From: Rubrivivax sp.
Lineage (GTDB): Bacteria; Pseudomonadota; Gammaproteobacteria; Burkholderiales; Burkholderiaceae_C
Reading direction: 5' to 3'
NCBI GenBank assembly: GCA_027490215.1
Contig: JAIXYO010000027.1
Location: forward strand, 1 to 64,000
DNA length: 64,000 nucleotides
Shown here: positions 1,061-34,492 of the stretch, piece after piece
Layout: every line of letters starts with the position of its first letter
How positions within the stretch are numbered: position 1 is the first letter of the stretch
The notes under the pieces: generated by a model
Told to the model about the DNA's origin: nothing
Databases searched by the model: none
What the model saw: only the letters and a program-made list of their open reading frames with translations
Made by a program: the position numbers and the translations under genes

Positions 1061-4000
1061 ATGGCGATTGCCGATGCCCCTCCTGAGAACATGACCGACA
1101 GAAGCCTTGCCCACCAGCCCCCACTGGGCCCGGCGATCGTCCCGACGCCTGACCGTGCGCGCGGCGAAGCGGTTCAGCGCGTCGTCAAGGTGCGCCGCGA
1201 CTACAACAGCTGGGTGGCGCGCGAGACGATGGAGGACTACGCACTGCGTTTCACGCCGCGCAGTTTCCGCAAGTGGTCGGAGCTGCGGGTGGCCAATACC
1301 GCGTTCGGCGCGTCGTCGTTTCTGGTGCTCGAAGCGGTGGGCGCCACGCTGCTGGTCGAGTACGGTTTCATCAACGCGTTCTGGGCGATCCTGGCGACCG
1401 GGCTGATCATCTTCATGGCCGGGCTGCCGATCAGCCACTACGCCGCGCGCTATGGCGTCGACATGGATCTGCTGACGCGCGGCGCTGGCTTCGGCTACAT
1501 CGGTTCCACGGTCACCTCGCTCATCTACGCGAGCTTCACCTTCATCTTCTTCGCGCTCGAAGCGGCCATCATGGCCTACGCATTGGAGCTGGCGTTCGAC
1601 ATTCCGCCAGCCTGGGGTTACCTGATCTGCGCGCTGGTGGTGATCCCGCTGGTCACGCACGGCGTCACCGTCATCAGCCAGTTGCAGATGTGGACCCAGC
1701 CGTTGTGGCTGGTGCTGCTGGTGCTGCCCTACATCTACGTCTTCGATGCCCACCCCACCCTGCTGGCGGATCTGCGCGCCTATGCCGGCGAGAACGGCCT
1801 GGGTGGCCAGTTCAACCCCTTGCTGTTCGGCGCGGCGCTGACGGTGGGCATCGCGCTCATCACGCAGATGGGCGAGCAGGTGGACTACCTGCGCTTCATG
1901 CCCGAGAAGACGCCCGCCAACCGCGGCCGCTGGTGGGCTGCGGTGCTGATGGGGGGGCCGGGCTGGGTGGTGCTGGGTGTGGCCAAGATGCTGGGCGGCG
2001 CGCTGCTGGCCCTGCTGGCGCTGAAGCTGGCCGTGCCCGCCGACCGCGCCGTCGATCCCAACCAGATGTACCTGGCGGCCTATGAGCTGGTGTTCCCGAA
2101 CTACGGCTGGGCGGTCGCGGCCACCTGCTTGTTCGTGGTCGTCAGCCAGCTCAAGATCAACGTCACCAACGCCTACGCCGGCAGTCTGGCCTGGAGCAAC
2201 TTCTTCGCGCGGTTGACGCACAGCCACCCCGGGCGGGTGGTGTGGATGGTGTTCAACACGCTGATCGCGCTGATGCTGATGGAGCTCAACGTGTTCCAGG
2301 CGCTGGGCCAGGTGCTGGGTCTGTACTCGAACATCGCGATCAGCTGGATCATGGCGGTGGTGGCCGATCTGGTCATCAACAAGCCGATGGGCTGGAGCCC
2401 GAAGGGCATCGAGTTCAAGCGCGCATACCTGTACGACATCAACCCGGTCGGCGTGGGCGCCATGGGACTGGCCTCGGTGCTGTCGATCAGCGCCAACCTC
2501 GGCCTGATGGGGCCGATGGCCGAGGCCTTCTCGGCGGTCATCGCACTGGTCACCGCCTTCGTCACCGCCCCGCTGATCGCGTGGTACACAAAGGGCAAGT
2601 ACTACATTGCTCGCACCTCTCGACCTTTTGATCAAGCCACGCCCGTGGATCCGGCCGCGCCGGGCCACCAGGCGGCGCCCCCCGGGGGCAGGAGCGCAGC
2701 GACTGGGGGGCTGTCAACCTGCACGGTCTGCGAACGCGAGTACGAGACCGAAGACATGGCGTACTGCCCGGCCTACCTCGGCTCGATCTGCTCGCTGTGC
2801 TGCTCGCTCGATGCGCGCTGCAATGACATGTGCAAGCCGCAGGCGAGTTGGTCGGCGCAGTGGCAGGCCGTCGGCCGCAAGCTGTTGCCCAGCGGCGTCT
2901 GGGCGCGGCTCGACACCGAGCTGGGTCGCTACTTGCTGCTGATGTCGGCCATCGCGCCGCTGCTCGCGCTGCTGTTCTGGATGATCTACCGCCAGCAGCT
3001 GACCACCTTCGACATGCCTGATGCCAAGGTGGCGAGCGCCCTGGGCATGGGTTTCGTCAAGGCCTATGCGGGCCTGATCGTCGTCACCGCAATCGTCGGC
3101 TGGTGGCTGGTGCTGACGCACAAGAGCCGCCAGGTCGCACAGGAGGAAAGCAACCGCCAGACGTATGCGCTGAACGAACAGACCGAGGTGTTGCGCGAGG
3201 AGATCGCCTCACACCGCCGCACCGACGAAGCACTGCAGGAGGCCAAGCGGCTGGCCGACACCGCCAACCAGGCGAAGAGCCGCTACATCACCACCATCAG
3301 CCACGAGTTGCGCACCCCGCTCAACAGCATCATTGGCTATGCGCAGCTGCTCGACGAAGACGACGCCATTCCCGCCCACCGCAAGCAGGCGGTCAGCGTG
3401 ATCCGGCGCGGTGGCGATCATCTGCTGTCGCTGATCGAGGGCACGCTGGACATTGCGCGCATCGAAAGCGGACGCTTCGCGCTCGAGGTCAAGCCGATGC
3501 GGCTGCGGGATTGCCTGCGCGAGATGACCAGTCTGTTCGCGCTGCAGGCCGCCGGCAAGGGCATCGAGTTCCGTCATGCGGTGGCCGACAACGTGCCCGA
3601 GCTGGTGCGCACCGACGAGAAGCGGCTGCGCCAGATCCTGATCAATGTGCTGGGCAATGCGGTGAAATTCACATCGCACGGACATGTGATCTTTCGTGTC
3701 AGCCACGCGCGCCAGATGGCGCTGTTCGAGATCGAAGACACGGGTCCGGGCATCGCGCCGGACGAGCTCGAGCAGATCTTCGAGCCCTTCGCGCGCGGCT
3801 CGGCGATTGGTGGTGGCGACTCGGGGGCCTCGGTCGGCAGCACCGGGCTGGGCCTGACCATCAGCAAGATGCTGACCGACGTGATGGGCGGCGAGATGAC
3901 GGTCGGTAGCGTGGCCGGGCCGGTGCCGCGCACGGGCACGGTCTTCCGCATCCGCTTGTTCCTGCCGGAAGTCCGTGCCGAGGCGGCCGATGGCATCGGC

Positions 4001-4675
4001 CTGCCGCGCACGCAGCGCGTTGGCTACATGGGCGCGCGTCGCCGGCTGCTGGTGGTCGACAACGAGGAGATCGACCGCGAGCTGCTGCGCAACGTGCTGG
4101 AACCCTTGGGATTCGAGTTGCGGCAGGCGGCCTCGGGCCTGGACTGCCTGGAACGTCTGCGCGATTTCAGTCCCGACGCGATCCTGATGGACCTGGCGAT
4201 GCCTGGCATCGACGGCTGGGAAACCATCCGCCGCATCCGCACCGAACAGCTGAGCGACGCGCCGATCGCGATCGTGTCGGCCAATGCCTTCGAGAAGGGC
4301 ACCGACAACATCGCCGGTATCCCGGCCGAGGATTTCATCCTGAAGCCGGTGCGCAAGTCGGAGCTTCTCGATTGGCTCGGTCGCGTGCTGGCGCTTGAGT
4401 GGCTGGAGGTGCCGCAGCGCGCCGCATCAGGCGCGGCCACGGCGCCAGCGGTTGGCTCGATCGAGCCGATGGTGCTGCCTTCTGCGGAGCGACTGCACAC
4501 CCTGCAGGAAATGATCGACCTCGGCTACTTCCGTGGCATCGTCAAGCAGCTCGACGAGATCGCGGCCAACGAACCGGGCACCGCAACGTTCGTTCAGCAC
4601 ATGCGGCAGCTCGCGCAGCAGTTCCAGCTCGACGCCATGACCGGTGTGATTCGCAAGGCCCAAGATGCTGCCTGA
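1061..4675 (+). CDS. NCS1-type permease fused to hybrid histidine kinase
   Basis: A 1204-residue membrane sensor. Residues about 20-525 form a many-helix transporter of the NCS1 nucleobase/cation symporter type. Residues 528-553 are a Pro/Gly/Ala linker, followed by an eight-cysteine segment (C554, C557, C569, C577, C580, C581, C587, C591) that could bind zinc or an Fe-S cluster. Two more membrane helices (about 625-675), a coiled coil, a HisKA domain with HELRTPLN (H748), an ATPase domain (DTGPGIA, GLGLTISK) and a receiver (phospho-acceptor D1044 in LMDLAMPG) follow. The architecture parallels CbrA/CrbS, in which an SLC5 transporter is fused to a kinase. ATG 1061 is preferred because AGGA sits 7-8 bases upstream; TTG 1043 and ATG 1091 are alternatives. 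A purine, pyrimidine or related nitrogen compound is a plausible signal, but that is inference. Confidence 0.88.
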   Translation: MAIADAPPENMTDRSLAHQPPLGPAIVPTPDRARGEAVQRVVKVRRDYNSWVARETMEDYALRFTPRSFRKWSELRVANTAFGASSFLVLEAVGATLLVEYGFINAFWAILATGLIIFMAGLPISHYAARYGVDMDLLTRGAGFGYIGSTVTSLIYASFTFIFFALEAAIMAYALELAFDIPPAWGYLICALVVIPLVTHGVTVISQLQMWTQPLWLVLLVLPYIYVFDAHPTLLADLRAYAGENGLGGQFNPLLFGAALTVGIALITQMGEQVDYLRFMPEKTPANRGRWWAAVLMGGPGWVVLGVAKMLGGALLALLALKLAVPADRAVDPNQMYLAAYELVFPNYGWAVAATCLFVVVSQLKINVTNAYAGSLAWSNFFARLTHSHPGRVVWMVFNTLIALMLMELNVFQALGQVLGLYSNIAISWIMAVVADLVINKPMGWSPKGIEFKRAYLYDINPVGVGAMGLASVLSISANLGLMGPMAEAFSAVIALVTAFVTAPLIAWYTKGKYYIARTSRPFDQATPVDPAAPGHQAAPPGGRSAATGGLSTCTVCEREYETEDMAYCPAYLGSICSLCCSLDARCNDMCKPQASWSAQWQAVGRKLLPSGVWARLDTELGRYLLLMSAIAPLLALLFWMIYRQQLTTFDMPDAKVASALGMGFVKAYAGLIVVTAIVGWWLVLTHKSRQVAQEESNRQTYALNEQTEVLREEIASHRRTDEALQEAKRLADTANQAKSRYITTISHELRTPLNSIIGYAQLLDEDDAIPAHRKQAVSVIRRGGDHLLSLIEGTLDIARIESGRFALEVKPMRLRDCLREMTSLFALQAAGKGIEFRHAVADNVPELVRTDEKRLRQILINVLGNAVKFTSHGHVIFRVSHARQMALFEIEDTGPGIAPDELEQIFEPFARGSAIGGGDSGASVGSTGLGLTISKMLTDVMGGEMTVGSVAGPVPRTGTVFRIRLFLPEVRAEAADGIGLPRTQRVGYMGARRRLLVVDNEEIDRELLRNVLEPLGFELRQAASGLDCLERLRDFSPDAILMDLAMPGIDGWETIRRIRTEQLSDAPIAIVSANAFEKGTDNIAGIPAEDFILKPVRKSELLDWLGRVLALEWLEVPQRAASGAATAPAVGSIEPMVLPSAERLHTLQEMIDLGYFRGIVKQLDEIAANEPGTATFVQHMRQLAQQFQLDAMTGVIRKAQDAA

Positions 4676-5615
4676 GGCTCTGAACCCGCTGAACCGCAGC
4701 ATCGCCGACGTGGTGCTGATCGTCGACGACGTGCCCGACAACCTGTCGGTGCTGCATGACGCGCTCGACGAATCGGGCTACACCGTGCTGGTGGCGACCA
4801 ACGGCGAGGCGGCGATTCAGCGCGCCGCGCAGGCACTGCCTGACATCGTGCTGCTCGACGCGGTGATGCCGGGAATCGATGGCTTTGAGGTCGCGCGGCG
4901 GCTGAAGGCGCGGCCCGACACCGCACACATCCCGATCGTCTTCATGACTGGCCTGACCGACACCGAGCATGTGGTGCAGGCCTTTCAGGCGGGCGGGGTC
5001 GATTACGTCACCAAGCCGATCCGTGCCAAGGAAGTGCTGGCGCGCATGGCGGTGCATGTGCAAGGTGCGCGGCAGGCCCGCCAGGCGCGCAATGCGCTCG
5101 ATGCCTTCGGCCACGCGACGCTGGTGGTGCGGGCGGCTGACGGGAAGATCGTCTGGAAGACGCCACTGGCGCGCGATCTGCTGATGCAGCATTTCGACGG
5201 TGGCGAACTCGACGCTGCGGTGCTGGCCTGGGTGCGCGATGAGCTGGCGCGCCGTGCGGTGGCTGGCGCCACACCCGGCGAGCCGCTGACGCTGGCGCGG
5301 CAGAAGCGCCGCCTGATCCTGGCGCTGCATGAGCAGACCGGTGACGACGAATGGCTGATCGTGATGCGTGAAAGCTCGGACCAGGCCGTGATCGATGCGC
5401 TGGGCGCGGCCTTCAAGCTGACCACCCGCGAGGCCGAGGTTCTGTACTGGCTGGCCAAGGGCAAGACCAACCGTGACATCGGCGACATCCTCGGCTCCAG
5501 TCCGGCCACCGTGAAGAAGCAGCTGGAGCGCGTCTACGTGAAGCTGGGCGTGGAAACGCGCACTGCCGCAGCCTCGGTGGCCATGAGTCGCCTGCGGCCC
5601 GCGGGCCAGGGTTGA
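4665..5615 (+). CDS. LuxR-type response regulator paired with the NCS1-kinase
   Basis: A 316-residue two-domain regulator. The N-terminal receiver (about 15-135) has the acidic pair in LIVDDVPDN, the phospho-acceptor D65 in LLDAVMPG and the conserved lysine K117 in YVTKPI. A linker of roughly 110 residues follows, then a LuxR/NarL helix-turn-helix at 251-312 (LTTREAEVLYWLAKGKTNRDI, with TVKKQLERVYVKLGV). The start overlaps the end of the kinase gene by 11 nt, so the two are translationally coupled and almost certainly cognate. The likely output is transcription of transport or catabolic genes; the target is unknown. Confidence 0.88.
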   Translation: MLPEALNPLNRSIADVVLIVDDVPDNLSVLHDALDESGYTVLVATNGEAAIQRAAQALPDIVLLDAVMPGIDGFEVARRLKARPDTAHIPIVFMTGLTDTEHVVQAFQAGGVDYVTKPIRAKEVLARMAVHVQGARQARQARNALDAFGHATLVVRAADGKIVWKTPLARDLLMQHFDGGELDAAVLAWVRDELARRAVAGATPGEPLTLARQKRRLILALHEQTGDDEWLIVMRESSDQAVIDALGAAFKLTTREAEVLYWLAKGKTNRDIGDILGSSPATVKKQLERVYVKLGVETRTAAASVAMSRLRPAGQG

Positions 5616-18123: not shown

Positions 18124-18855
18124 ATGAAGGTCTTGCTGATCGACGACCACCCGCTGATCCTGTCGGCGCTGCAGAACATCATCCAGGGCCTGAGCGACAA
18201 CGTGAGCGTGGTTGCGGCCGCCAGTGCGCGCATGGCTCGCGAGACGCTGGCACAGGACAGCGCCTTCGATCTGGTTTTGCTCGACCTGCGCCTGGGCGAT
18301 GCCGACGGCTTCGATGTGCTGACCGAGTTCCGCGCGGCCTACCCGGGGTTGCCGGTGGTGGTGGTGTCGGCCAGCGACCGCACCAGCGACGTGATCCGCG
18401 CCATCGATCTGGGTGCCATGGGCTTCGTGCCGAAGCGCGCCTCCAACGACACCCTGTTGGAGGCGCTGAGCCTGGTGATGTCCGGTGGCATCTATGTGCC
18501 GCCGATGAACATGGGCGACGAGCCATCGGCGGCCGGCCTGCATACAGACACCACGTCCGGCGCGCTTCGCTCGGTGCGCCAGCGCGCCACCGACGAGGGC
18601 TTCCAGACCCACGCCCCGCTCGACTCGCTGGGCCTGACGCCTCGGCAGACCGAGGTGCTGGGTCTGTTGCTGCAGGGCAAGCCGAACAAGCTGATCGCGC
18701 GCGACCTGAACCTGTCGGTCGAGACAGTCAAGGACCACGTCGCTGCCGTGCTGCGCGCCTTGAACGTCAGCTCGCGCACGCAGGCGGTTCTCGCGGTGAG
18801 CCAGATGTCGCACCAGCAAGGCGGCTTGCACGGTTGGAAAAAGAGCAGCCGATGA
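18124..18855 (+). CDS. NarL/LuxR-type response regulator
   Basis: A 243-residue regulator with a receiver at 1-125 (LLIDDHPLIL; phospho-acceptor D54 in LVLLDLRLGDADG; late lysine in FVPKRAS) and a LuxR helix-turn-helix at about 165-225 (LGLTPRQTEVLGLLLQGKPN and TVKDHVAAVLRALNV). A 40-residue linker separates them. GGAGGA lies just upstream of the ATG. The stop overlaps the start of the next gene, a hybrid kinase, by ATGA, so the two form a coupled pair. The regulon is unknown. Confidence 0.9.
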   Translation: MKVLLIDDHPLILSALQNIIQGLSDNVSVVAAASARMARETLAQDSAFDLVLLDLRLGDADGFDVLTEFRAAYPGLPVVVVSASDRTSDVIRAIDLGAMGFVPKRASNDTLLEALSLVMSGGIYVPPMNMGDEPSAAGLHTDTTSGALRSVRQRATDEGFQTHAPLDSLGLTPRQTEVLGLLLQGKPNKLIARDLNLSVETVKDHVAAVLRALNVSSRTQAVLAVSQMSHQQGGLHGWKKSSR

Positions 18856-20660
18856 AGGAAGAGCCGGCATCCTCGTCCAGCGAGTTGTCGGCGTCATCGC
18901 TGCCAGAGGAGGTGCGCAGCGCCTTCGATTACCTGCCGGCGCAGCTGGCCGGCAACCTGGCTGGCATCAGTGTCATCGTGATGATCTTCTGGACCAGCAC
19001 GCCGGCATCGTTGATGCTGCCCTGGCTGGCGGTGTTCGCGGTGATGTGGTTGGCGCGGCTCTGGCTGCTGCAGCGCTTCAAGCAGGCCACGCCTCTCACG
19101 CTGACCGATTGGCAGCGCTGGCGCTGGTTGTGGAACGTCGGCACACTGACATCGGGGGCGCTGTGGGGCGCCACGGCCTGGCTCTTCTATCTGCGGGGCG
19201 GTCACGTGCAGCAGATCGCACTGATCATCACCGTCTACACCTTCTGCATCGCTGTCGTGCCGGTGCTGGCCACCCAGCCCCGGATGTACCTGCTTTTCTC
19301 GGCACTGTGTTTTGTGCCGATGGCAGCGCGCGTGGCCACGGATGGCTCGGAAGACAGCTACCGGCTGGCTGGCATCCTGCTGCTGATTTTTTCGCTGAGC
19401 ACGCTGCTCGCGCGCACCTACCGCCAGGCGCTGCAGCGGGTTCTGGAACTCAAGCTGCGGGCCGATCACCTGCTGGCGCAGCTGCGCATCGAGAAGCTCG
19501 CCGCTGATGGGGCGCGGCAGGAAGCGGAGGTTGCCAACCGCGCGAAAACGCAGTTCTTCACCGCCGCCAGCCACGACCTGCGGCAACCGCTGCACGCGAT
19601 GGGGCTGTTCGCCGAGGCCCTGCGCCAGAAGAACCACGACGTCGAGGTGGCGCACCTGGTCAACAGCATCAACGAGTCGGTCGACGCCCTGGAAGGCCTG
19701 TTTTCCGAACTGCTCGACATCACCCGGATCGACAGCGGTGGCATCGAGGTGCATCCGCAACACTTCCCCTTGTCGGACCTTTATCGCAAGCTGGCACTGC
19801 ATTTCGAACCGGCGGCGTTCGAGAAAGGCTTGGCGCTGCGCTTTCGGGGTGCGGGGCATGTCGTGCATGCCGACCCGCTGCTGGTCGAGCGCATCCTGCG
19901 CAACCTTGTGTCGAATGCCATCCGCTACACCACCGACGGCACCGTGCTGGTCGGCTGCCGGCGTCGTGGCGACAGGCTCTGCTTGCAGGTGTGGGATACC
20001 GGCCCTGGCATCGCCGAGGACCAGCAGGCGCGTGTCTTCGAGGAGTTCTACCAGGTGCCGCACGGGCCGCGCACCGAAGCGCACCAGCGCAAGGGATTGG
20101 GCTTGGGTCTGGCCATCGTCAAGCGTCTGGCCGACCTGATGGGGGCGTCGGTCGGGTTGCGCTCGCAACCGGGCAGGGGAAGTGTCTTCAGCCTCGAAGT
20201 GCCGCTCGGCAAGTGGGCTCCGCAGGCAGAGCCAATGCTGACGGGCAAGGCGTTGCGGAACCTGACGCTGGAAGGCCGCACCATCGTCGTCGTGGAAGAC
20301 GAGCCAGCGGTGCTGAGCGGGCTCGAAGCGCTGCTGCACGGCTGGGGCGCGAGCATCATCGCCTTCGACAGCGTGGCCGCGTGCAAGGCCTGGGTGCAGA
20401 CCGCCCACGGCTCGATGCCGCGCCCTGATCTGCTGATCGTCGACTACCGGCTGGAACAAGGCATGACCGGCGCCGATGCGCTGGCCCTGCTGCGTGGCCG
20501 TTTTGGCGAGGCTCTGCCGGCCATCGTGATCACCGGCAGCACGATGTCCGAGCTCGACCTCGAAGCGCAGCAGAAGAACTTCCACCTCCTGATCAAGCCG
20601 GTGGTGCCGAACAAGCTGCGCGCGATGATCGCGTTCAAGCTCGGCGTGAAGACTGTCTGA
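18852..20660 (+). CDS. Membrane hybrid histidine kinase with C-terminal receiver
   Basis: A 602-residue sensor. Residues about 30-190 hold six or so hydrophobic helices with no recognised periplasmic domain. A short coiled coil leads to the kinase core with SHDLRQPLHAMGLF (H241), an N-box near RILRNLVSNAIRYT, DTGPGIA and GLGLGLAIVKRLADLMG. A receiver occupies about 488-600 (VVEDEPAVLSGLEALLHGWG; LLIVDYRLEQGMTG; late lysine in LLIKPV). HDLRQPL is the H-box of the NahK/ErcS-prime type of kinase. ATG 18852 overlaps the regulator stop by ATGA; TTG 18834 is a weaker alternative. The signal may come from the membrane domain itself. Confidence 0.88.
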   Translation: MKEEPASSSSELSASSLPEEVRSAFDYLPAQLAGNLAGISVIVMIFWTSTPASLMLPWLAVFAVMWLARLWLLQRFKQATPLTLTDWQRWRWLWNVGTLTSGALWGATAWLFYLRGGHVQQIALIITVYTFCIAVVPVLATQPRMYLLFSALCFVPMAARVATDGSEDSYRLAGILLLIFSLSTLLARTYRQALQRVLELKLRADHLLAQLRIEKLAADGARQEAEVANRAKTQFFTAASHDLRQPLHAMGLFAEALRQKNHDVEVAHLVNSINESVDALEGLFSELLDITRIDSGGIEVHPQHFPLSDLYRKLALHFEPAAFEKGLALRFRGAGHVVHADPLLVERILRNLVSNAIRYTTDGTVLVGCRRRGDRLCLQVWDTGPGIAEDQQARVFEEFYQVPHGPRTEAHQRKGLGLGLAIVKRLADLMGASVGLRSQPGRGSVFSLEVPLGKWAPQAEPMLTGKALRNLTLEGRTIVVVEDEPAVLSGLEALLHGWGASIIAFDSVAACKAWVQTAHGSMPRPDLLIVDYRLEQGMTGADALALLRGRFGEALPAIVITGSTMSELDLEAQQKNFHLLIKPVVPNKLRAMIAFKLGVKTV

Positions 20661-20674
20661 GGGCGCTGCATCCC

Positions 20675-21505
20675 ATGGGATGGCCGGGTCGGCTCGAACT
20701 GAACTACCGCCGCGATGGCAACCGCACGCTGGCACACGACCGCCACAGCGGCCCGCTGCGTGTATTGCAAAGCCTGTACCCCGAAGGTGAGGGCATCTGC
20801 CACCATGTCCTGGTGCACCCGCCGGGCGGCATCGTCGGCGGGGATGTGCTGCACATCGAGGCGAATCTGGCCGCCGGCGCGCATGCACTCATCACGACGC
20901 CGAGCGCCACCCGCTTCTATCGCAGCGCAGGCGAGCCCGCGCGGCAGTCGGTGGTGGCCCGGGTCGAGGTTGGTGCGCGACTCGAATGGCTGCCGATGGA
21001 AACCATCTGCCACAGCGCGGCACTGGCCGAGAACCAGTTGCGTTTCGAGATATCGCCAGGCGGCGAAATGATGGGTTGGGACCTGGTGGCGCTGGGTCTG
21101 CCGGCCAGCGGCGAACCTTTCGAGACGGGGCACTACGCGCAGCGCATCGAGATCCCTGGCGTGTGGCTGGAGCGATCGACGATCCGCGGCGATGACCATC
21201 GCCTGCTCAATTCTCCTTTGGGCTTTGCCAGCCACCGAGTGCTCGCGACGCTGTGGTTCGCCACGGGCAAGCCGATGGTATCGGATCGTCGCGACCACTT
21301 GCTCGACGCCGCGCGCGAGCAGGCGTCGAGCCATGCGCTGACGCGCACTGCCGGCTGCAGTTCACCGCATGCCGAAGTCGTTATCTTGCGTGTGCTCGCA
21401 CCGCGAGTCGAACCGGCGATGCAACTGCTGGGCGCGGTCTGGGCCCGCTGGCGTGAGGTGGGGTGGGGCCATTGCGCAGTGCCGCCGCGCGTGTGGCGGA
21501 CGTAG
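20675..21505 (+). CDS. ureD: Urease accessory protein UreD
   Basis: A 276-residue maturation factor that binds the urease apoprotein and helps UreF/UreG deliver nickel. Family features are the N-terminal GRLELNYRRDGNRTLAHDRHSGPLRV start region, HPPGGIVGGDVLHIE, and TTPSATRFYRSAG. The start lies 14 bp after the hybrid kinase stop. In most Burkholderiales ureD heads ureABCEFG, but here none of those genes follows. An urtE-like tail lies 100 bp downstream and the complete urtABCDE operon is 7 kb away on the other strand. Urease genes may be elsewhere on the chromosome, or this may be a stranded copy. Confidence 0.9.
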   Translation: MGWPGRLELNYRRDGNRTLAHDRHSGPLRVLQSLYPEGEGICHHVLVHPPGGIVGGDVLHIEANLAAGAHALITTPSATRFYRSAGEPARQSVVARVEVGARLEWLPMETICHSAALAENQLRFEISPGGEMMGWDLVALGLPASGEPFETGHYAQRIEIPGVWLERSTIRGDDHRLLNSPLGFASHRVLATLWFATGKPMVSDRRDHLLDAAREQASSHALTRTAGCSSPHAEVVILRVLAPRVEPAMQLLGAVWARWREVGWGHCAVPPRVWRT

Positions 21506-24117: not shown

Positions 24118-26700
24118 ATGTCCGATCTGCCACAGGACTCTTCGCAGGCCGTCCGCCACATCAGCCTGGTTGAGAGCGGGCGCATCCCTGTCGTGGGGAT
24201 CGGTTGCTCTGCCGGTGGCCTGGAGGCATTGAACCAGTTCTTCTCGGCTGCGCCGTCCGATGCGGGCCTGGCCTTCGTGGTCGTTCAGCATCTGTCCCCA
24301 ACGCACCACAGCGCCCTGCCTGAACTTCTGCGTGCTTCTACCAGCATGCCGGTGGAAGAAGTCACCGACGGCACCGTTGTGCATCCTGATCACGTGTACG
24401 TGATTCCGCCCAACTGCGACTTGTCGTTGCTGCAGGGCGTGCTTCACCTGACGGTTCCCTCCGCTGCGCGTGGCCTGCGGCTGCCCATCGACCACTTTCT
24501 GATCAGTCTGGCCGATGACTGCCAGGACAAGCCTGTTGGTGTGCTGCTGTCGGGCATGGGCTCGGACGGCGTGCTCGGACTTGCTGCCATCAAGGCAAGG
24601 GCCGGGCTCACGCTCGTGCAGGAGCCGGCCAGCGCTGGCGCTGATGGCATGCCCAGCAGCGCCATCAAGGCCCGGGTGGCAGACATCATTGCCAAGCCCC
24701 AGGAACTGCCTGAACGCATCCTCGAGTTTCTGGGGCGCGCCGCAAGTCATCGTGTTGCCAACGAGGCCGCCGCACCCAACCCTGGCGACGACTCGGCAGC
24801 ACTTGCGAAGATCCTCCTTCTGCTTCACACCGCGAGCGGAAGTGATTTTTCGCTCTACAAGTCCAACACCTTGTTGCGCCGCATCGAACGGCGCATGGCG
24901 GTTCATCACAGGGCCAGCCTCGACGACTACGCCCGATTGCTGCAAGGCGAGCCCCAGGAGTTGGGCCTGCTTTTCAGGGAATGCCTGATCGGTGTGACCA
25001 GCTTCTTTCGTGACCCGGCGGTCTGGGATCAATTGCGCGATGTGGCACTTCCCCAGCTGCTTGCGCGGTTTCCGGCGGGCAAGATCTTGCGGGCCTGGGT
25101 GCCGGCCTGTTCGACCGGCGAGGAGGCCTACACCTTGGCCATGGTGTTCACCGAGGCTGCACGCGCTTTCGGATCGAGCATCCCGTTCACGCTGCAGATC
25201 TTCGCCACCGATCTGGACGACACCGCCGTGGAGTTTGCCCGCAAGGGGGTCTACCCCGCCAGCATCGCTGCCGATGTCTCGGCCGAGCGATTGGCCGAAT
25301 TCTTCTCAGCCGAAGAAGGCGGTGGCTTTCGGGTCAAGAAGCATTTGCGTGAGATGCTGGTGTTTGCCAAGCAGAACCTCGCGAGCGACCCGCCGTTCAC
25401 CAGGCTCGACATCCTGAGTTGCCGCAACCTGCTGATCTATTTCGACGTCGCGCTGCAGCGGCGGATCCTGCCTTTGTTTCACTACGCGCTGAATCCAGAC
25501 GGACTGCTGGTGCTGGGCAGTGCCGAAAGCGCTGGCAGCTTCGAACAGATGTTCGTGCCGATCCGCCCCAAGGAACGGATCTATCGCCGCAGCCAGCAGC
25601 CGCGAGGCTTGCCCTCACTCAACTTCAGCCAGCAAAGGCCCACCATCTTGACTCTCCCCGATGAACCACCCATCCCTGACCGGGGGGAGGCGATCGGTCG
25701 CCTCACTGACCAGCTTGTGCAGCAGACCTGGGCTCCCGCAGCCGTGCTGGTGAACGCCAATGGCGACATCCTCTACATCAGCGGACGCACGGGGAAGTAC
25801 CTCGAACCCGCCGTCGGCAGGACGAACATCAACATCCACGCGATGGCGAGGGAAGGACTGCGCGAAGCGCTTGCAGGCGTGATCCACAGGGCGATCGCCG
25901 AAGAGCGCCCGATCCTGCTGCGCGGGCTTCGCGTCGGCACCAACGGCGGCACACAAGTCGTCAACGTCACGGTGCAGGCGCTCGACAAGCCAGAGCTGCT
26001 CCGCGGGCGCGTCATCGTCGTCTTCAGCGACGTGGCCACTCCTGCAAAACGACGCAAGTCCGTTGGCGCCGGCACGTCGGACTCGCAAGGCGGACTGCAA
26101 GACGAGTTGCAGCAGGCGCGCGACGCGCTGCAAGCGACCCATGAGGCGATGCAGATCTCCGTCGAGGAGCTGCAGTCCAGCAACGAGGAACTGCAGTCCA
26201 CCAATGAAGAGTTGCAGTCCACCAACGAGGAACTCACCACATCGAAGGAAGAGCTGCAATCCGTCAATGAGGAACTGCAAACGGTCAATGCGGAGCTGCA
26301 ATCGAAAGTGGACGACCTGACCCGCGTGAAGAACGACATGGCCAACCTGCTCAACAGCACGGATATCGCCACCATCTTCCTGGACGCCAACATGAACGTA
26401 CGCCAATTCACCCCGTACGCCGTGAAGCTGTTCCGGCTGATTCCGGGCGACATCGGCCGACCTCTGGCACATGTGGTCAACGACCTGGACTACCCACAGC
26501 TGGTAGTGGACGCGGCTGAAGTTCTTCGCACACTGGTATTCAAGGAAACGACCGTTGCAACCGCCGATGGTCGCTGGTACCGTGTCAGGGCGATGCCTTA
26601 TCGAACGCAGGACAACGTGATCGAGGGTGTGGTGATCACTTTCACCGATGTCACAGCCATCAAGCAACTCGAAGCCGAGTTGCGGAGTCATGGCCCGTAG
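24118..26700 (+). CDS. CheB-CheR fusion with coiled coil and PAS domain
   Basis: An 860-residue cytoplasmic protein. CheB methylesterase fills about 20-205 (GIGCSAGGLEAL with the catalytic Ser, VVVQHLSPTHHS with His, SGMGSDGVLG with Asp). CheR methyltransferase fills about 230-480 (RIERRMAVHH, GVTSFFRD, ACSTGEEAYTLAM, ILSCRNLLIYF). A coiled coil at about 660-735 is made of near-identical EELQSTN heptads. A PAS domain (about 745-855) ends the protein. Such fusions are usually part of huge sensor proteins that continue into a kinase; here a TAG stop is followed three codons later, in the same frame, by the kinase gene. Its role could be chemosensory-like adaptation or stress sensing. Confidence 0.9.
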   Translation: MSDLPQDSSQAVRHISLVESGRIPVVGIGCSAGGLEALNQFFSAAPSDAGLAFVVVQHLSPTHHSALPELLRASTSMPVEEVTDGTVVHPDHVYVIPPNCDLSLLQGVLHLTVPSAARGLRLPIDHFLISLADDCQDKPVGVLLSGMGSDGVLGLAAIKARAGLTLVQEPASAGADGMPSSAIKARVADIIAKPQELPERILEFLGRAASHRVANEAAAPNPGDDSAALAKILLLLHTASGSDFSLYKSNTLLRRIERRMAVHHRASLDDYARLLQGEPQELGLLFRECLIGVTSFFRDPAVWDQLRDVALPQLLARFPAGKILRAWVPACSTGEEAYTLAMVFTEAARAFGSSIPFTLQIFATDLDDTAVEFARKGVYPASIAADVSAERLAEFFSAEEGGGFRVKKHLREMLVFAKQNLASDPPFTRLDILSCRNLLIYFDVALQRRILPLFHYALNPDGLLVLGSAESAGSFEQMFVPIRPKERIYRRSQQPRGLPSLNFSQQRPTILTLPDEPPIPDRGEAIGRLTDQLVQQTWAPAAVLVNANGDILYISGRTGKYLEPAVGRTNINIHAMAREGLREALAGVIHRAIAEERPILLRGLRVGTNGGTQVVNVTVQALDKPELLRGRVIVVFSDVATPAKRRKSVGAGTSDSQGGLQDELQQARDALQATHEAMQISVEELQSSNEELQSTNEELQSTNEELTTSKEELQSVNEELQTVNAELQSKVDDLTRVKNDMANLLNSTDIATIFLDANMNVRQFTPYAVKLFRLIPGDIGRPLAHVVNDLDYPQLVVDAAEVLRTLVFKETTVATADGRWYRVRAMPYRTQDNVIEGVVITFTDVTAIKQLEAELRSHGP
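26164..26292 (+). repeat. Heptad-coding repeat inside the CheB-CheR gene
   Basis: Consecutive 21-bp units encode variants of EELQSxN / EELTTSK / EELQSVN. Codons differ between units (GAG/GAA, CTG/TTG, TCC), so this is an old protein-level repeat that forms a coiled coil rather than a fresh DNA expansion. Confidence 0.8.
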
Positions 26701-26709
26701 GAGCGTGCG

Positions 26710-28179
26710 ATGGCCTCATTCTTGGTGCCAGAACCGGACCCCCAGGATGCATCAGCAGCCGAACTGCGCCGGCTCGCCGAGCAGCGTCTCGCGCGCGCGC
26801 CGGAAACACCCGAGCTGACCCTCGCCGAGGCCAAGTATCTGGTACACGAGCTGCAGGTCCATCAGGCCGAACTGCAGATCCAGAACGAAGCCTTGCAGCA
26901 GTTGGAGACGAAGGCCCGCCAAGCGCTGCAGCGCCTGGCCGAATTGCACGAGACTCTGGAGCAGAAGGTGGTCGACCGCACGGCCGAACTTGCGATGGCG
27001 CGCGAGGCAGCCGAGGCTGCCAACCGTGCCAAGAGCGCTTTCCTTTCACACATGAGCCACGAGCTGCGCACACCGCTCAACGGCATGATGGGGATGACCC
27101 AGCTGGCACTGAAGCGAGCGACGGACCCGGTGCAGATCGACTGGCTCAAGAAGGCTCTGCGCGCGTCGGAACGCCTGTTGTCCGTCATCAATGACGTGCT
27201 GGAAATCTCCAAGATCGAAGCCGACAAGATGGAATTGGCGCAGGAGGAGTTCCAACTGGGCGGCGTCTTGGAAGAGTTGACCAACCTGTTTTCGCTGCAA
27301 GCGGCACAAAAGTGGCTCGGCTTCGAAGTGGTGATTGCGCCAGATTTGGCGAGTCGTCTGCTGGTGGGCGACGCTCAGCGCCTTGGGCAGATATTGGTGA
27401 ATCTGGTCGGCAACGCTGTGAAGTTCACGGAAGCGGGCACGGTGCGTGTCGAAGCGCGTGTCGAGCAGGAACTTGAAGACGGCGCGCTGGTCCGCTTTGA
27501 AGTCGAAGACACGGGGGTGGGTATCGCGCAAGAAAACACAGCCCGACTTTTCCAGTCGTTCGAGCAACTCGACGCATCGTCCACGCGCAGGAATGGCGGT
27601 ACGGGCCTGGGCCTGGCCATTTGCAAGCGACTGGTGCAAATGATGCACGGGGAGATCGGCGTGCACAGCAGACTGGGTCGGGGCAGTACGTTCTGGTTCA
27701 ACGCTCGTCTGGGGGCCAGCCAAGCGACGCATCAGGAGGTGTTGGTGCCATCTCTGACCGATGCTCGGGAGCAGCTGCGCCACGAGTTCGCCGAATCCTC
27801 GGTCCTGCTGGTCGAGGACAACCCGATCAACCAGGAAGTGATGTGTGCCTTGTTGGAGGATGCGGGCTTGCAAGTTGCCGTGGCCGACAACGGCGCGTCG
27901 GCCCTGGCGATGTGTCGCTACGCTGACTACGCGCTTATCTTGATGGATGTGCAAATGCCTGTGCTTGATGGCATTCAGGCCACGCGCGGAATCCGCCAGA
28001 TTCCTGGACGTGAGCACACACCCATCATCGCGTTGACGGCCGGCGCATTTGTTCAGGACCGAACCCGTTGCCTCAATGCGGGCATGAGCGATCACCTCGC
28101 AAAGCCTGTCGATACCGCTGCGCTGTACGGTACCTTGCTGAAGTGGTTGCGTTCAAAGCCGACGATGCCGCGGGTTTGA
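26710..28179 (+). CDS. Cytoplasmic hybrid histidine kinase with receiver
   Basis: A 489-residue kinase without membrane helices. The N-terminus (15-65) contains AKYLVHELQVHQAELQIQNE, a helical module common next to PAS domains, then a coiled coil. HisKA has SHMSHELRTPLNGMMGM (H117), and the ATPase domain has NLVGNAVKFT, EDTGVGIA and GTGLGLAICKRLVQMM. The receiver starts near 365 (VLLVEDNPINQE; phospho-acceptor in LILMDVQMPVLDG; lysine in HLAKPV). GGAG lies 6-9 bases upstream of the ATG and overlaps the TAG stop of the CheB-CheR gene. The two proteins probably work as a pair, with the sensory PAS on the other polypeptide. Confidence 0.9.
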   Translation: MASFLVPEPDPQDASAAELRRLAEQRLARAPETPELTLAEAKYLVHELQVHQAELQIQNEALQQLETKARQALQRLAELHETLEQKVVDRTAELAMAREAAEAANRAKSAFLSHMSHELRTPLNGMMGMTQLALKRATDPVQIDWLKKALRASERLLSVINDVLEISKIEADKMELAQEEFQLGGVLEELTNLFSLQAAQKWLGFEVVIAPDLASRLLVGDAQRLGQILVNLVGNAVKFTEAGTVRVEARVEQELEDGALVRFEVEDTGVGIAQENTARLFQSFEQLDASSTRRNGGTGLGLAICKRLVQMMHGEIGVHSRLGRGSTFWFNARLGASQATHQEVLVPSLTDAREQLRHEFAESSVLLVEDNPINQEVMCALLEDAGLQVAVADNGASALAMCRYADYALILMDVQMPVLDGIQATRGIRQIPGREHTPIIALTAGAFVQDRTRCLNAGMSDHLAKPVDTAALYGTLLKWLRSKPTMPRV

Positions 28180-28268: not shown

Positions 28269-28976
28269 CTAGATGGACATCCTTGCCCGAACGCCCTCGG
28301 CTTCCATGTCCTTGCCGCGTCCGCGCTGGATGATCTCGCCGCGCTCCATCACCAGATACTGATCCGCCAGCTCGGCGGCGAAGTCGTAGAACTGCTCGAC
28401 CAGCACGATGGCCATCTGCTGCCCCGGGGTCATGCCGCGATCGGCCAGCATGCGGATCACCCGGCCGATGTCGTTGATCACGCTGGGCTGGATGCCTTCA
28501 GTCGGCTCGTCGAGGATCAGCAGCTTCGGCCCTGCAGCCAAGGCACGTGCGATCGCCAACTGCTGCTGCTGGCCACCGGAGAGGTCGCCGCCACGGCGGT
28601 TGATCATCTGCTTGAGCACCGGGAACAGCTCGAAGATCTGCGATGGAATCGGCGTGCTGCCACTCTTGTAGGCCAGTCCCATGCGCAGGTTTTCTTCCAC
28701 CGTCAGCCGCCCGAAGATCTCGCGGCCCTGCGGCACATAGCCCACGCCTTTTCGCACTCGCTCGTACGGCGTGTCGCGGGTGATCTCAGCACCATCGAGC
28801 GTGATGCTTCCGGTCTTGACTGGCACCACGCCCATCAGGCTTTTCAGCAAAGTGGTCTTGCCCACGCCATTGCGGCCGAGGATCACCGTGACTTCCCCCA
28901 GCTTCGCTTCGAACCCGACGTTGCGCAGGATGTGTGAGCCACCGTAATACTGATTGACGCCTTCGACCTTCAGCAT
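28269..28976 (-). CDS. urtE: Urea ABC transporter ATP-binding protein UrtE
   Basis: A 235-residue ATPase of the branched-chain amino acid/urea importer type. It starts MLKVEGVNQYYGGSHILRNV, the standard UrtE opening; an in-frame ATG at 29003 would add nine unrelated residues. Walker A is GRNGVGKTTLLKSL, the signature is LSGGQQQQLAIARAL and Walker B is LLILDEPTEGIQP. It pairs with UrtD to power urea uptake. It is the distal gene of the operon, but about 400 bp of repeat-rich DNA separates it from urtD, which is unusual. Its C-terminal sequence also occurs as a relic at 21609-21689. Confidence 0.93.
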   Translation of the reverse strand: MLKVEGVNQYYGGSHILRNVGFEAKLGEVTVILGRNGVGKTTLLKSLMGVVPVKTGSITLDGAEITRDTPYERVRKGVGYVPQGREIFGRLTVEENLRMGLAYKSGSTPIPSQIFELFPVLKQMINRRGGDLSGGQQQQLAIARALAAGPKLLILDEPTEGIQPSVINDIGRVIRMLADRGMTPGQQMAIVLVEQFYDFAAELADQYLVMERGEIIQRGRGKDMEAEGVRARMSI

Positions 28977-29383
28977 CTCAGTGTTCCCACCGCTTGCATG
29001 CATGGACTGAGCGGGCCGAGGATGCCGAGTGACCGGCTCCGCTCATGTCCCCCAGGCCGGGCTTCGCCCGACCTTCCTCCTTTACTTCGCTGCGCCGGTC
29101 ACCCGGCACCCTCGGCCGGGAGGCGTATGGGCTGTGCGGAGACCCGAACGGCCACGCTGTTGCCCAGAGCGCTGCGGTGGGGTGGCGTGTGGAGTGAAGT
29201 AAAGGAGGAGGGCCGGCTGGGCTCGCGAAAAACGCGTGGGTCGACAACCGGCCCGGGGGAGCGAGCCTGGACGCAAACAGTCCTGAGGACTGTTTGTGCC
29301 TGGCGAGCGCCCGGGGCTCTGTCCCCGGGCATGAACGGAACACGGCGCCCCGCCGCAGCGCTCCCGCGCCAACGCCAAAACAG
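28977..29383. repeat. Inverted-repeat island between urtE and urtD
   Basis: No gene is visible in these 407 bp. Three nested or adjacent dyads are clear. (1) Arms at 29014-29037 and 29094-29117 are 24 nt each and match at 22 positions (GGCCGAGGATGCCGAGTGAC begins the left arm). (2) TCCTCCTTTACTTC at 29075-29088 is perfectly complementary to GAAGTAAAGGAGGA at 29197-29210. (3) CAAACAGTCC-TGA-GGACTGTTTG at 29274-29296. A fourth, GCCCGGGG/CCCCGGGC, spans 29309-29330. The cluster looks like a REP/BIME or MITE-type element inserted in the urt operon. Transcript stability or partial termination before urtE could be affected. Confidence 0.75.
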
Positions 29384-30274
29384 CTAGCGCCCAAGGTAAA
29401 CCTCCACGACCTTCTCGTTCGCCTGCACCTCGCTCAGCAGCCCCTCGGCCAACACGCTGCCTTCATGCAGCACGGTGACCTTCTTGCCGTTCCTGCCGTT
29501 TTGCGTCAGCTCGCCGATGAACTTCATGTCGTGCTCGACGACGACCAGGGAATGGTTGCCCTCCAGCGACAGGAACAGCTCGGCCGTGCGCTCGGTCTCC
29601 TCGTCGGTCATGCCGGCCACCGGTTCGTCGAGCAGCAGCAGCTTCGGGTCCTGCATCAGCAGCATGCCGATCTCCAGCCACTGTTTCTGGCCATGGCTCA
29701 GCAGCCCGGCATTGCGTTGTGCGCTGTCCTTCAGGTGGATCAACGTCAGCATCTCGGCAATGCGGTCGAGCTGCTCGCCGCTGAGGCGAAAGAACATCGA
29801 CGCCCGCACGCCGCGGTCGGCGCGCAGCGCCAGCTCGAGGTTCTCGAACACGCTGAGCTGCTCGAAAACGGTGGGCTTCTGGAATTTGCGGCCGATGCCG
29901 ATCGACGCGATCTCGTTCTCGCGCAGGCGCAGCAGATCGATCGTCGAGCCGAAGTAGGCGTGGCCCAGATCGGGTCGCGTCTTGCCGGTGATCACGTCCA
30001 TCATCGTCGTCTTGCCAGCGCCGTTCGGGCCGATGATGCAACGCAGCTCACCGGCGCTGATGCTCAGACTGAGCGCATTCAAGGCCTTGAAGCCGTCGAA
30101 GCTGACGGTGATGTCGTCGAGGTACAGGATGGCACCATGCGAGACGTCCAGCGTGCCCGGTTTGTGCAAGCGGCCGTAGCTCGCCTGGCGACCCCCGGAG
30201 CCGCTTTCGACCATCGACTTTTCGTCACGGGCCCGGCGGATCTCGGTGCCGGCCTTCATCAGATCGGGCGTCAT
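29384..30274 (-). CDS. urtD: Urea ABC transporter ATP-binding protein UrtD
   Basis: A 296-residue ATPase. A basic, poorly ordered leader of about 45 residues precedes the nucleotide domain. Walker A is GPNGAGKTTMMDVITG, the signature-like segment is LLSHGQKQWLEIGMLLMQDP and Walker B is LLLLDEPVAGMTDEE, followed by VVVEHDMKFI. The SHGQKQWLE form and the DEPVAGM Walker B are characteristic of UrtD/LivG. The start ATG overlaps the urtC stop by ATGA. Its stop borders the repeat island that separates it from urtE. Confidence 0.94.
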   Translation of the reverse strand: MTPDLMKAGTEIRRARDEKSMVESGSGGRQASYGRLHKPGTLDVSHGAILYLDDITVSFDGFKALNALSLSISAGELRCIIGPNGAGKTTMMDVITGKTRPDLGHAYFGSTIDLLRLRENEIASIGIGRKFQKPTVFEQLSVFENLELALRADRGVRASMFFRLSGEQLDRIAEMLTLIHLKDSAQRNAGLLSHGQKQWLEIGMLLMQDPKLLLLDEPVAGMTDEETERTAELFLSLEGNHSLVVVEHDMKFIGELTQNGRNGKKVTVLHEGSVLAEGLLSEVQANEKVVEVYLGR

Positions 30275-31392
30275 GACGGATCGTCCTTCTTGCGGCGAAA
30301 CAGGCCCACGATGCCGTTCGGCAGGAACAGCGTCACCGCGATGAAAAGGGCCCCGAGGAAGTACAGCCAGAACTCGGGGAACACCTGTGTGAACCAGCTC
30401 TTGGCGCCGTTGACGAAGAAGGCGCCGATGATCGGCCCGATCAGGGTGCCACGCCCGCCCACCGCGGCCCAGATCGCGATCTCGATGCCGGCTGCGGGAG
30501 ACATTTCACTCGGGTTGATGATGCCGACCTGGGGCACATACAGCGCACCGGCGATGCCGCACATCACCGCCGAGATCACCCAGATCGACAGCTTGTATTT
30601 CAGCGGGTCGTAGCCGGTGAACATCACGCGCGTCTCCGCGTCACGTATTGCCTGCAGCACGCGGCCGAACTTGCTGGTGACGAGCCAGCGGGCGAACAGG
30701 AAGAAGCCGATCAGCGTCAGTCCCGTCAACACGAACAGCGTCATGCGCATGCCGGGTGTGGCGAGCGGCATGTCGAGGATGCGCTTGAAATCGGTGAAGC
30801 CGTTGTTGCCGCCAAAGCCGGTTTCGTTGCGGAAGAACAGCAGCATCGCGGCGAACGTGACCGCCTGCGTGATGATCGAGAAGTACACACCCTTGATGCG
30901 CGAGCGGAACGCGAAGAAGCCGAACACGAAGGCGAGCAGCCCCGGCACCAGCACCACCAGCAGCATCTGCGCGACGAATGAATCGCTGAGCGCCCAGTGC
31001 CAGGGCAGCGTCTTCCAGTCGAGGAAGACCATGAAGTCCGGCAGGTCCGACTGGTAGTTGCCGTCGCGGCCGATCTGCCGCATCAGGTACATGCCCATCG
31101 CATAGCCGCCGAGCGCGAAGAACATGCCGTGGCCCAGCGACAGGATGCCGGTGTAGCCCCAGATCAGATCCATCGCCAGCGCGCAGATGGCGTAGCACAT
31201 GATCTTCGCGATCAGCGACACCGCGTAGTCGCTGAGGTGGAACGGGCTGGTCTCCGGGATCAGCAGGTTCATCACCGGTACCCCAACCGAGACGATCACC
31301 ACGAAGGCAAACAGCACGCTCCACATCTGGCCGGTGAGCAGGCCGCCACGCGGTGGTGCGATCGACAGCGAGGGGGGCATGACGGCGCTCAT
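30271..31392 (-). CDS. urtC: Urea ABC transporter permease UrtC
   Basis: A 373-residue inner-membrane permease of the LivM type with nine to ten hydrophobic helices. Motifs include GYTGILSLGHGMFFALGGYA, FRSRIKGVYFSIITQAVTFA and the loop GRVLQAIRDAETRVMFTGYD that contacts the ATPases. The length and the C-terminal LFLPNGIVGLFRR fit UrtC. It forms the urea channel together with UrtB. Its start overlaps the urtB stop by ATGA and its stop overlaps the urtD start in the same way. Confidence 0.94.
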   Translation of the reverse strand: MSAVMPPSLSIAPPRGGLLTGQMWSVLFAFVVIVSVGVPVMNLLIPETSPFHLSDYAVSLIAKIMCYAICALAMDLIWGYTGILSLGHGMFFALGGYAMGMYLMRQIGRDGNYQSDLPDFMVFLDWKTLPWHWALSDSFVAQMLLVVLVPGLLAFVFGFFAFRSRIKGVYFSIITQAVTFAAMLLFFRNETGFGGNNGFTDFKRILDMPLATPGMRMTLFVLTGLTLIGFFLFARWLVTSKFGRVLQAIRDAETRVMFTGYDPLKYKLSIWVISAVMCGIAGALYVPQVGIINPSEMSPAAGIEIAIWAAVGGRGTLIGPIIGAFFVNGAKSWFTQVFPEFWLYFLGALFIAVTLFLPNGIVGLFRRKKDDPS

Positions 31393-33044: not shown

Positions 33045-34312
33045 TTCTTCTCAGGCTCGTCCTTCTTCTTGTCGTTGCCTTCGATGAACGGGCTCCATGG
33101 CTTGGCCTTGACCGGGCCCGGCGTCTTCCAGACCACATTGAACTGGCCGTCAGCCTTGATCTCGCCGATGAACACCGACTTGTGCAGGTGGTGGTTCTTC
33201 GGATCCATCATCGACGTGATGCCGCTCGGCGCCTTGAAGGTCTGGCCGGCCATCGCCGCGATCACCTTGTCGGTGTCGGTGCTCTTGGCCTTCTCGACGG
33301 CCTGCTTCCACATGTGGATGCCGATGTAGGTGGCTTCCATCGGGTCGTTGGTCAGCGGCTTGTCGGCGCCCGGGAGCTTCTTGGCCTTCGAGTAATCGGC
33401 CCACTGCTTCTTGAACGCTTCGTTGGTCGGGTTCTTGATCGACATGAAGTAGTTCCAGGCCGCCAGGTGGCCGACCAGTGGCTTGGTGTCGACGCCACGC
33501 AGCTCTTCTTCACCCACCGAGAAGGCCACCACTGGCACGTCGGTTGCCTTCAGGCCCTGGTTGCCCAGTTCCTTGTAGAACGGCACGTTGGAGTCGCCAT
33601 TGATGGTGGAGATCACCGCCGTCTTGCCACCCGCTGCGAATTTCTTGATGTCGGCCACGATGGTCTGGTAATCGCTGTGGCCAAACGGGGTGTACTTCTC
33701 GTCGATGTCCTCGTCCTTCACGCCCTTGCTCTTCAGGAAGGCGCGCAGGATCTTGTTGGTGGTGCGCGGGTACACATAGTCAGTGCCCAGCAGCACGAAG
33801 CGCTTGGCCGATCCGCCGTCCTTGCTCATCAGGTACTCGACGGCCGGAATGGCTTGCTGGTTCGGCGCGGCGCCGGTGTAGAACACGTTCTTGCTGAGCT
33901 CTTCACCTTCGTACTGCACTGGGTAGAACAGCAGGCTGTTGAGTTCCTCGAACACCGGCAGCACGGACTTGCGCGACACGCTGGTCCAGCAGCCGAAGGT
34001 CACGACCACCTTGTCCTGCGTGATCAGCTGCTTGGCCTTCTCGGCGAACAGCGGCCAGTTCGACGCTGGGTCGACCACCACGGCCTCGAGTTTCTTGCCC
34101 AGCACGCCGCCCTTGGCGTTGATCTCGTCGATGGTCATCAGCACGGTGTCCTTCAACACCGTCTCAGAGATGGCCATCGTGCCCGACAGCGAGTGCAGCA
34201 CACCGACCTTGATGGTGTCGGCGGCGTTGGCGAATGAGCTGAGGCCGAGGGCGGCCACGCCCATCGCGATGGCCGTGAGTGACTTGCCGATTTGGCGGCG
34301 GGATGTGTTCAT
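33041..34312 (-). CDS. urtA: Urea ABC transporter substrate-binding protein UrtA
   Basis: A 423-residue periplasmic binding protein. The signal peptide begins MNTSRRQIGKSLTAIAM and ends SFANAAD; the SRRQIGK element suggests Tat export. The mature protein starts TIKVGVLHSLSGTMAISE and includes FYPVQYEGEELSKNVFYTGA and LGTDYVYPRTTN, characteristic of UrtA/FmdD. AGGAG lies about 13 bp upstream of the ATG. It is the first gene of the operon and is divergent from dnaE2. NtrC-type control is known for urt operons, but I found no convincing sigma-54 site here. The C-terminal tail is Lys/Asp/Glu-rich. Confidence 0.95.
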   Translation of the reverse strand: MNTSRRQIGKSLTAIAMGVAALGLSSFANAADTIKVGVLHSLSGTMAISETVLKDTVLMTIDEINAKGGVLGKKLEAVVVDPASNWPLFAEKAKQLITQDKVVVTFGCWTSVSRKSVLPVFEELNSLLFYPVQYEGEELSKNVFYTGAAPNQQAIPAVEYLMSKDGGSAKRFVLLGTDYVYPRTTNKILRAFLKSKGVKDEDIDEKYTPFGHSDYQTIVADIKKFAAGGKTAVISTINGDSNVPFYKELGNQGLKATDVPVVAFSVGEEELRGVDTKPLVGHLAAWNYFMSIKNPTNEAFKKQWADYSKAKKLPGADKPLTNDPMEATYIGIHMWKQAVEKAKSTDTDKVIAAMAGQTFKAPSGITSMMDPKNHHLHKSVFIGEIKADGQFNVVWKTPGPVKAKPWSPFIEGNDKKKDEPEKK

Positions 34313-34492
34313 GGGTGATCTGCTCCTGTGGGTTGTTCGGTCGTCCGGCCAATGGCATGGGGTGCCGCTTGGCGTGCATCGCAGGTTACGCAGGGACCGA
34401 GGGCAGCGGAATACGCCCGATGGCGTATGCGGGGAGAAGCGGAGCAGGTGCTGAATTCACCACGCCTTTCGCGCTGGGGGTTTGCGCGACAA

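Follow-up and report, generated by a model that had tools for sequence, protein, structure and literature searches.

An Apparently Undescribed, Widespread Family of NCS1-Type Transporter/Hybrid Histidine Kinase Fusions with a Probable Role in Urea-Responsive Control of urtABCDE

The start of contig JAIXYO010000027.1 of a Rubrivivax sp. assembly (GCA_027490215.1; the 64,000 nucleotides analyzed are called the window, and base 1 of the window is the start of the contig) carries a gene that joins an NCS1-type transporter domain to a hybrid histidine kinase (1061-4675, + strand; 1204 amino acids). We propose that its product is probably a urea-responsive transceptor that controls the urea ABC transporter genes urtABCDE. 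The family to which it belongs is apparently undescribed, widespread, and real, and its role is most likely the sensing of urea (in the clade of the window protein) or of short amides (in the other group), together with control of the uptake genes. The architecture, its conservation, the fold, the split in gene neighborhoods, the palindrome upstream of urtA, and the presence or absence of that palindrome with the kinase were all computed here.

A preliminary description of this DNA held that a single frame encodes a permease, a cysteine segment, two helices, a kinase, and a receiver, and the open frame (ATG to stop), the Pfam matches, and the fold agree with it. The gene is preceded by 1060 bases of contig, and the gene upstream encodes a glutathione S-transferase. 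The membrane domain (residues ~56-520; 1226-2620) is followed by a segment containing eight cysteines (residues 554-591; 2720-2833), two long helices (residues ~620-649 and ~655-734; 2918-3262; from DSSP analysis of an AlphaFold model), HisKA (residues 738-804; 3272-3472; PF00512, E 6e-17), HATPase_c (residues 851-968; 3611-3964; PF02518, E 1e-23), and a receiver (residues 997-1104; 4049-4372; PF00072, E 2.1e-21). The last three all exceed the Pfam cut-offs within one chain, which identifies the protein as a hybrid histidine kinase. In the model, two short helices and then the two long ones follow the cysteine segment, and the last runs toward the kinase; both long helices are hydrophobic by sequence. 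The next gene (4665-5615, + strand; 316 amino acids) shares its first 11 nucleotides (4665-4675) with the kinase gene, again as first described, and encodes a LuxR/NarL-type response regulator with a receiver at residues 17-127 (PF00072, E 4.3e-28) and a GerE/LuxR-type helix-turn-helix domain at residues 252-306 (PF00196, E 2.3e-14). As far as can be judged from sequence, this architecture and the predicted target genes fit a transceptor, with a transporter-fold receptor linked to nutrient-gene output.

We examined gene neighborhoods for the 127 members with long frames (more than 800 amino acids) and at least 1000 bases upstream, a biased sample in that 72 of the 127 come from among the best matches of a search for close relatives. 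In this survey of fusions and their neighbors, which the preliminary description had suggested, 60 kinase genes diverge from ureA (57 within 700 bases), and 33 stand beside amide-type urt or formamidase genes (32 diverge from amide-type urtA and one from fmdA); one more diverges from urea-type urtA, and one follows ureJ. The kinase and regulator genes diverge as a pair from the urease operon in many relatives. Seven amide-group loci have long flanks; all seven continue into urtABCDE-like genes, and six also into fmdA plus fmdB. A FastTree phylogeny of 140 rows needs one change to account for the ureA- and fmd-labeled rows (only those rows being counted), and it places the window kinase in the urease clade, which comprises 96 rows with a local support of 100. 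Four Azonexaceae loci (L087, L090, L107, and L109) carry urease-clade kinases with no ure, urt, or fmd query genes within 23-24 kb. The genome of the window also encodes an amide-group paralogue (L153, contig C59); the genes diverging from it are urt-like and are accompanied by fmdA and fmdB. At the end of contig C59, ureA (L153 13371-13667) follows this paralogue and its regulator gene, so in this genome urease gamma adjoins the amide-group system and not the urease-clade kinase.

The predicted targets in the window lie on the − strand: urtA, encoding the urea transporter binding protein (33041-34312; TIGR03407, 596 bits against a cut-off of 493), and, each also above its cut-off, urtB (31389-33044; TIGR03409), urtC (30271-31392; TIGR03408), urtD (29384-30274; TIGR03411), and urtE (28269-29003; TIGR03410). 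Pattern searches placed a predicted operator, TACGCC-N4-GGCGTA (34412-34427), ~100 bases before the start codon of urtA; it is the only exact occurrence of this palindrome in the 3.5-Mb genome. The form TACG-N8-CGTA is present in all 20 of the thinned amide-group divergent regions (the shuffled estimate was 0.3, the floor of the method). Allowing at most one mismatch, the merged pattern TACGYC-N4-GRCGTA matched the urtA upstream region in 23/25 loci (unthinned, window included), and shuffles gave no match. At the same stringency the merged pattern was absent upstream of ureG, ureE, urtC, and ureC (0/155), and at two mismatches it was found in 7/52 ureC upstream regions.

The site also tracks the kinase across genomes. 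We sought urtA in 32 genomes with a family member and in 40 without one (30 from one set of 36, plus 10 from the wider genome surveys), counting urtA genes that were at least 60% identical and had at least 200 bases upstream; one positive, with 19 bases upstream, was dropped. The urtA site (at most one mismatch) was present in 22/24 genomes with the kinase and in 1/21 without it. The lone kinase-negative genome with a site (G022) is a 65%-complete assembly, and in G042, one of the two kinase-carrying genomes not counted as having a site, the only kinase is of the amide group. Another genome (G038), whose kinase falls outside the urease clade, carries an exact TACGTC form. Together with the urease and urt/formamidase neighbors in relatives, this puts the proposal of a nitrogen-compound signal, made in the preliminary description from nearby genes, on firmer ground.

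Other motifs are common in the ureA-kinase divergent regions, namely GCAA-N6-TGCC (reverse complement GGCA-N6-TTGC) in 28/36 and GGCA-N7-TGCA in 27/36; we take these to resemble a sigma54 promoter. The word AGTTCCAT from the ureA regions was dropped as coding, as it matches the ureA start codon region.

The homologue set contained 156 members, of which 140 were non-redundant and 138 had frames of more than 800 amino acids. A kinase core was detected by blastp in 136 of these 138, and Pfam added one more (L022, with HisKA below cut-off), so that the kinase is in-frame in 137; the exception (L008) is a frame of 815 amino acids. A receiver was found in 134/138. L154, L155, and L022, which form one clade, have a kinase without a receiver, indicating that the transporter-cysteine-helix module couples to more than one type of kinase. 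Among 397 Pseudomonadota genomes, 70 contained a match, and 65 contained the 72 strong places (more than 600 bits), all in frames of 894-1365 amino acids; five genomes had weak matches only. The weaker standalone matches of the genome survey were set aside as permeases without a cysteine tail or kinase. That the window frame is an assembly artifact joining two genes might be suspected because the assembly comprises 72 contigs, but numerous other records, some of them of plasmids described as complete, contain a frame built in the same way, and nearly all long frames contain the kinase; we regard this explanation as negligible. The fusion thus withstood both challenges anticipated in the preliminary description, artifact and lack of cysteine conservation (see below).

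In Klebsiella, 342 plasmid records match the transporter and cysteine part. In one of them (L113, CP137452), urt-formamidase genes lie divergent from the kinase gene, and a regulator absent from the gene table is detectable. An Acinetobacter baumannii plasmid (L119 5001-5249) carries, before ureE, an unannotated short stretch similar to the last part of the transporter (32% over ~95 residues). Published accounts list, in Dechloromonas aromatica, a 1131-amino-acid kinase and a 308-amino-acid receiver protein two table rows before UrtA (PMC2907700), and, in Ectopseudomonas guguanensis, a kinase with a regulator next to urt genes (PMC13296017); neither account, in the part available, mentions a transporter domain. 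From their size and place, both pairs would be members of the family.

The membrane domain has no match to PF02133 or TIGR00800 (whole protein against Pfam; membrane module with the cysteine segment against NCBIfam), no Pfam model scored above cut-off before residue 738, and neither sequence nor profile searches of solved structures returned an NCS1 chain. Because a direct match is absent, the NCS1 label rests on fold and intermediate sequences. CodB and Mhp1 rank first in structure comparisons with the predicted fold (model residues 18-482), which supports a common fold; remote homology is indicated by profile comparisons. A profile of the family membrane domain (A1) matches permeases with E values of 3e-62 to 2e-27, one of its own rows (L115) being itself near several of them. 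Of five permeases scanned against PF02133, one (L156) was above cut-off, two were below it, and two were unmatched; TIGR00800 matched four of the five, all below cut-off. With L115 removed, hhalign aligned the profile with CodB plus three PF02133 hits (87% probability, E 4.7e-7) and with a broader permease set (E 1.5e-48). The NCS1-like permease that had been described is therefore recovered through the CodB/Mhp1 fold and the intermediates, although it lies outside the Pfam NCS1 model. Unlike NCS1 transporters, the domain is outside PF02133 and TIGR00800 as scored, and it is joined to a kinase. Residues E167, E272, Q273, D275, K365, N367, and N370 are invariant in the 138 members and in a kinase-less protein (L114), and some of them may line a polar urea pocket. 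In one alignment (~15% identity, with methods disagreeing at transmembrane helix 8), the CodB threonines of the Na2 site fall opposite Lys365 and Ile366. By the criterion chosen, the ureA group differs from the fmd group at 21 positions (one within the cysteine segment), which are candidates for determinants of ligand specificity.

The cysteine segment has the pattern C-x2-C-x11-C-x7-C-x2-CC-x5-C-x3-C (residues 554, 557, 569, 577, 580, 581, 587, and 591). All eight cysteines are present with identical spacing in 138/138 non-redundant members with long frames, so the pattern is not due to chance; in a first alignment of 116 rows, 115 kept all eight, and the kinase-less L114 lacked four. A profile of the segment found 43 places at E < 1e-20 in 38/299 genomes, all in frames of 894-1247 amino acids, and nothing else significant in the 299 genomes (the next match, E 0.009, was in a 28-amino-acid frame). 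In the domain search proposed in the preliminary description, no Pfam family scored above cut-off; there was weak similarity only (E ~1) to the Sir2 and CRIPT zinc modules, and the segment profile alone gave just short partial matches to zinc fingers. The spacing and the short strands of the model would agree with a zinc ribbon of two CxxC knuckles, and zinc binding is a guess. Two kinase-less proteins have a cysteine tail. A lone transporter on Acinetobacter lwoffii plasmid pALWED1.2 (536 amino acids, 45% identical), whose gene precedes ureEFG-J-D-ABC, ends in CxxC...CxxC, four of the eight cysteines, which indicates that at least half of the segment is independent of the kinase. In an NCS1-like Streptomyces plasmid protein (L115 5743-7725), a CxxC...CxxC tail precedes an SCP2 domain; the gene for this protein adjoins genes for 2-nitroimidazole nitrohydrolase and a molybdopterin enzyme. 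Cysteines 569, 581, 587, and 591 are missing from both proteins. On these two examples, the simplest reading would be an ancestral zinc-ribbon tail to which four further cysteines were added in the kinase fusions.

In the mechanism that we propose, the NCS1-type domain would bind urea, or formamide or another short amide in sister clades. Occupancy by the ligand would shift the cysteine segment and the helices that follow it, thereby setting kinase activity (by analogy with CbrA), and the kinase would phosphorylate the LuxR-type regulator encoded by the overlapping gene. The regulator would then bind TACGCC-N4-GGCGTA upstream of urtA and control the urea ABC transporter, presumably by activation. 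Partner regulators were readable for 25/138 members, one of them from the amide group.

Several observations weigh against this proposal. For 32 of the 127 members, including the window kinase and those of its genus, the upstream stretch surveyed contained no query genes; for 24 of these none occurs anywhere in the DNA covered, and for eight, the window kinase among them, that DNA includes ure, urt, or fmd genes at some other place. Three relatives from the genus (L032, L034, and L035) also lack query genes over 7-10 kb upstream. The palindrome is not enriched in the genome of the window: with one mismatch or fewer it occurs at 12 places, the C59 divergent region among them, and the reversed pattern at 70. 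Its significance thus lies in where it stands and not in how often it occurs. One genome with a urease-clade kinase (G025) has only a two-mismatch urtA site, and because the genomes are relatives of one another, comparing those with and without the kinase does not amount to independent trials. The case for control of ureA is weaker than that for urtA, because the site is found in just 14/36 ureA divergent regions at up to two mismatches (10/36 at one; shuffled 0.3). Finally, the suggestions about pocket residues lean on alignments of ~15% identity.

The urtA palindrome might instead be bound by another regulator, with the kinase pair acting on different targets. The pair lies ~29 kb from urtA, and its own promoter has no palindrome, but from genome to genome the site goes together with the kinase, and a variant occurs in the amide-group divergent promoters. 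CrbR, a LuxR-type regulator, is described as needing an imperfect inverted repeat that is missing where its system is missing; some listed copies begin TACGAC, and by eye the half-sites found here resemble some of those listed (PMC5715377). We consider binding by another regulator very unlikely. It is highly improbable that the NCS1 domain senses a classical ligand (purine, cytosine, hydantoin, or allantoin), as might be expected from the top fold matches, CodB and Mhp1. The neighbors are urease, urt-type, and formamidase genes. The aromatics that sandwich the base in CodB are given as Trp108 and Phe204 (PMC9379551), and one profile alignment (~15% identity) pairs them with Phe163 (137/138) and Val262 (136/138). 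Moreover, the NCS1 protein MetT is reported to carry metformin (PMC13390362), so NCS1 membership need not imply a ring substrate. Purines or allantoin are not favored as the signal.

It is also distinctly unlikely that the main signal is intracellular, with metal or thiol state read at the cysteine segment and the transporter domain serving mostly as an anchor or as a working transporter. The invariance of the eight cysteines in the 138 long-frame members and the loss of four of them from the two kinase-less proteins would fit this idea, but a kinase-less transporter retains both CxxC pairs, and the urease and amide groups share one cysteine pattern while their operons differ by substrate, in keeping with a membrane domain that reads the ligand. 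A further, unlikely possibility is that the family forms a transceptor class of its own: urea or short amides would be read by the NCS1-type domain, and the cysteine segment would be a real second input, with two four-cysteine sites, one a structural zinc ribbon and the other a labile metal or iron-sulfur (Fe-S) site gained with the kinase. The segment that the preliminary description had proposed as a second, redox or metal, input is thus conserved; such an input is only a candidate, as the two CxxC pairs also form the tail of the kinase-less transporter. We continue to favor urea sensing by the transporter domain.

The Amt-type sensor kinase of Kuenenia, which we take to be the one named Ks-Amt5, differs from the fusion in transporter fold and in ligand. 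It is described as an ammonium sensor and, like the fusion, joins a nitrogen-nutrient transporter fold to a histidine kinase (PMC5764959). The nearest described kind is the SLC5/STAC kinases (CbrA, CrbS/MxtR, and RpuS), which, in the accounts available, share with the fusion an N-terminal LeuT-fold transporter, a soluble linker, and a kinase, and in the case of CrbS and RpuS also a receiver and LuxR-type regulator tied to nutrient uptake or use (PMC7918813, PMC9100948, PMC5715377, PMC13022988). The SLC5 domain of CbrA is reported to pack on the STAC domain, which may relay transporter motion (PMC13022988). Unlike these kinases, the fusion has an NCS1-type domain at its N terminus in place of an SLC5 (SSS) domain, its eight-cysteine segment and helices occupy the STAC position, Pfam finds no PAS domain in it, and its neighbors point to urea and short amides. 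Characterized transporter-kinase fusions in the literature that we found, as far as available to us, are SLC5 or Amt proteins. The precedent that had been cited for such fusions stands for SLC5 proteins (CbrA and CrbS), and for an NCS1-kinase fusion we found no description in the literature searched, most subscription journals being outside its reach. GrtK is described as an ammonia sensor of Burkholderia glumae. The fmd operon of Methylophilus methylotrophus is reported to contain genes for amide/urea uptake and formamidase and to be induced by formamide and urea; the part of that report available names a putative positive regulator, but no sensor of the inducer (PMC10781810).

The window also contains ureD (20675-21505, + strand; PF01774, E 1.5e-50), encoding a urease accessory protein that provides pathway context; no palindrome with two or fewer mismatches was found beside it. 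Directly before ureD are a second LuxR-type regulator and a hybrid kinase with HisKA, HATPase_c, and receiver domains (18124-20660), and between ureD and the urt operon are a CheB-CheR-PAS fusion and then another hybrid kinase (24118-28179).

If our proposal is correct, these proteins would constitute a second, widespread LeuT-fold class of transporter-kinase, with a different transporter family and a different linker as its basis, and urease-clade and amide-group systems would operate side by side in one genome. Were the cysteine segment a true second input, urea uptake would be switched on only when urea and the metal or redox state both permit. The family offers a candidate urea sensor for soil and water Burkholderiales and a candidate short-amide sensor for other Pseudomonadota, Klebsiella plasmids included.

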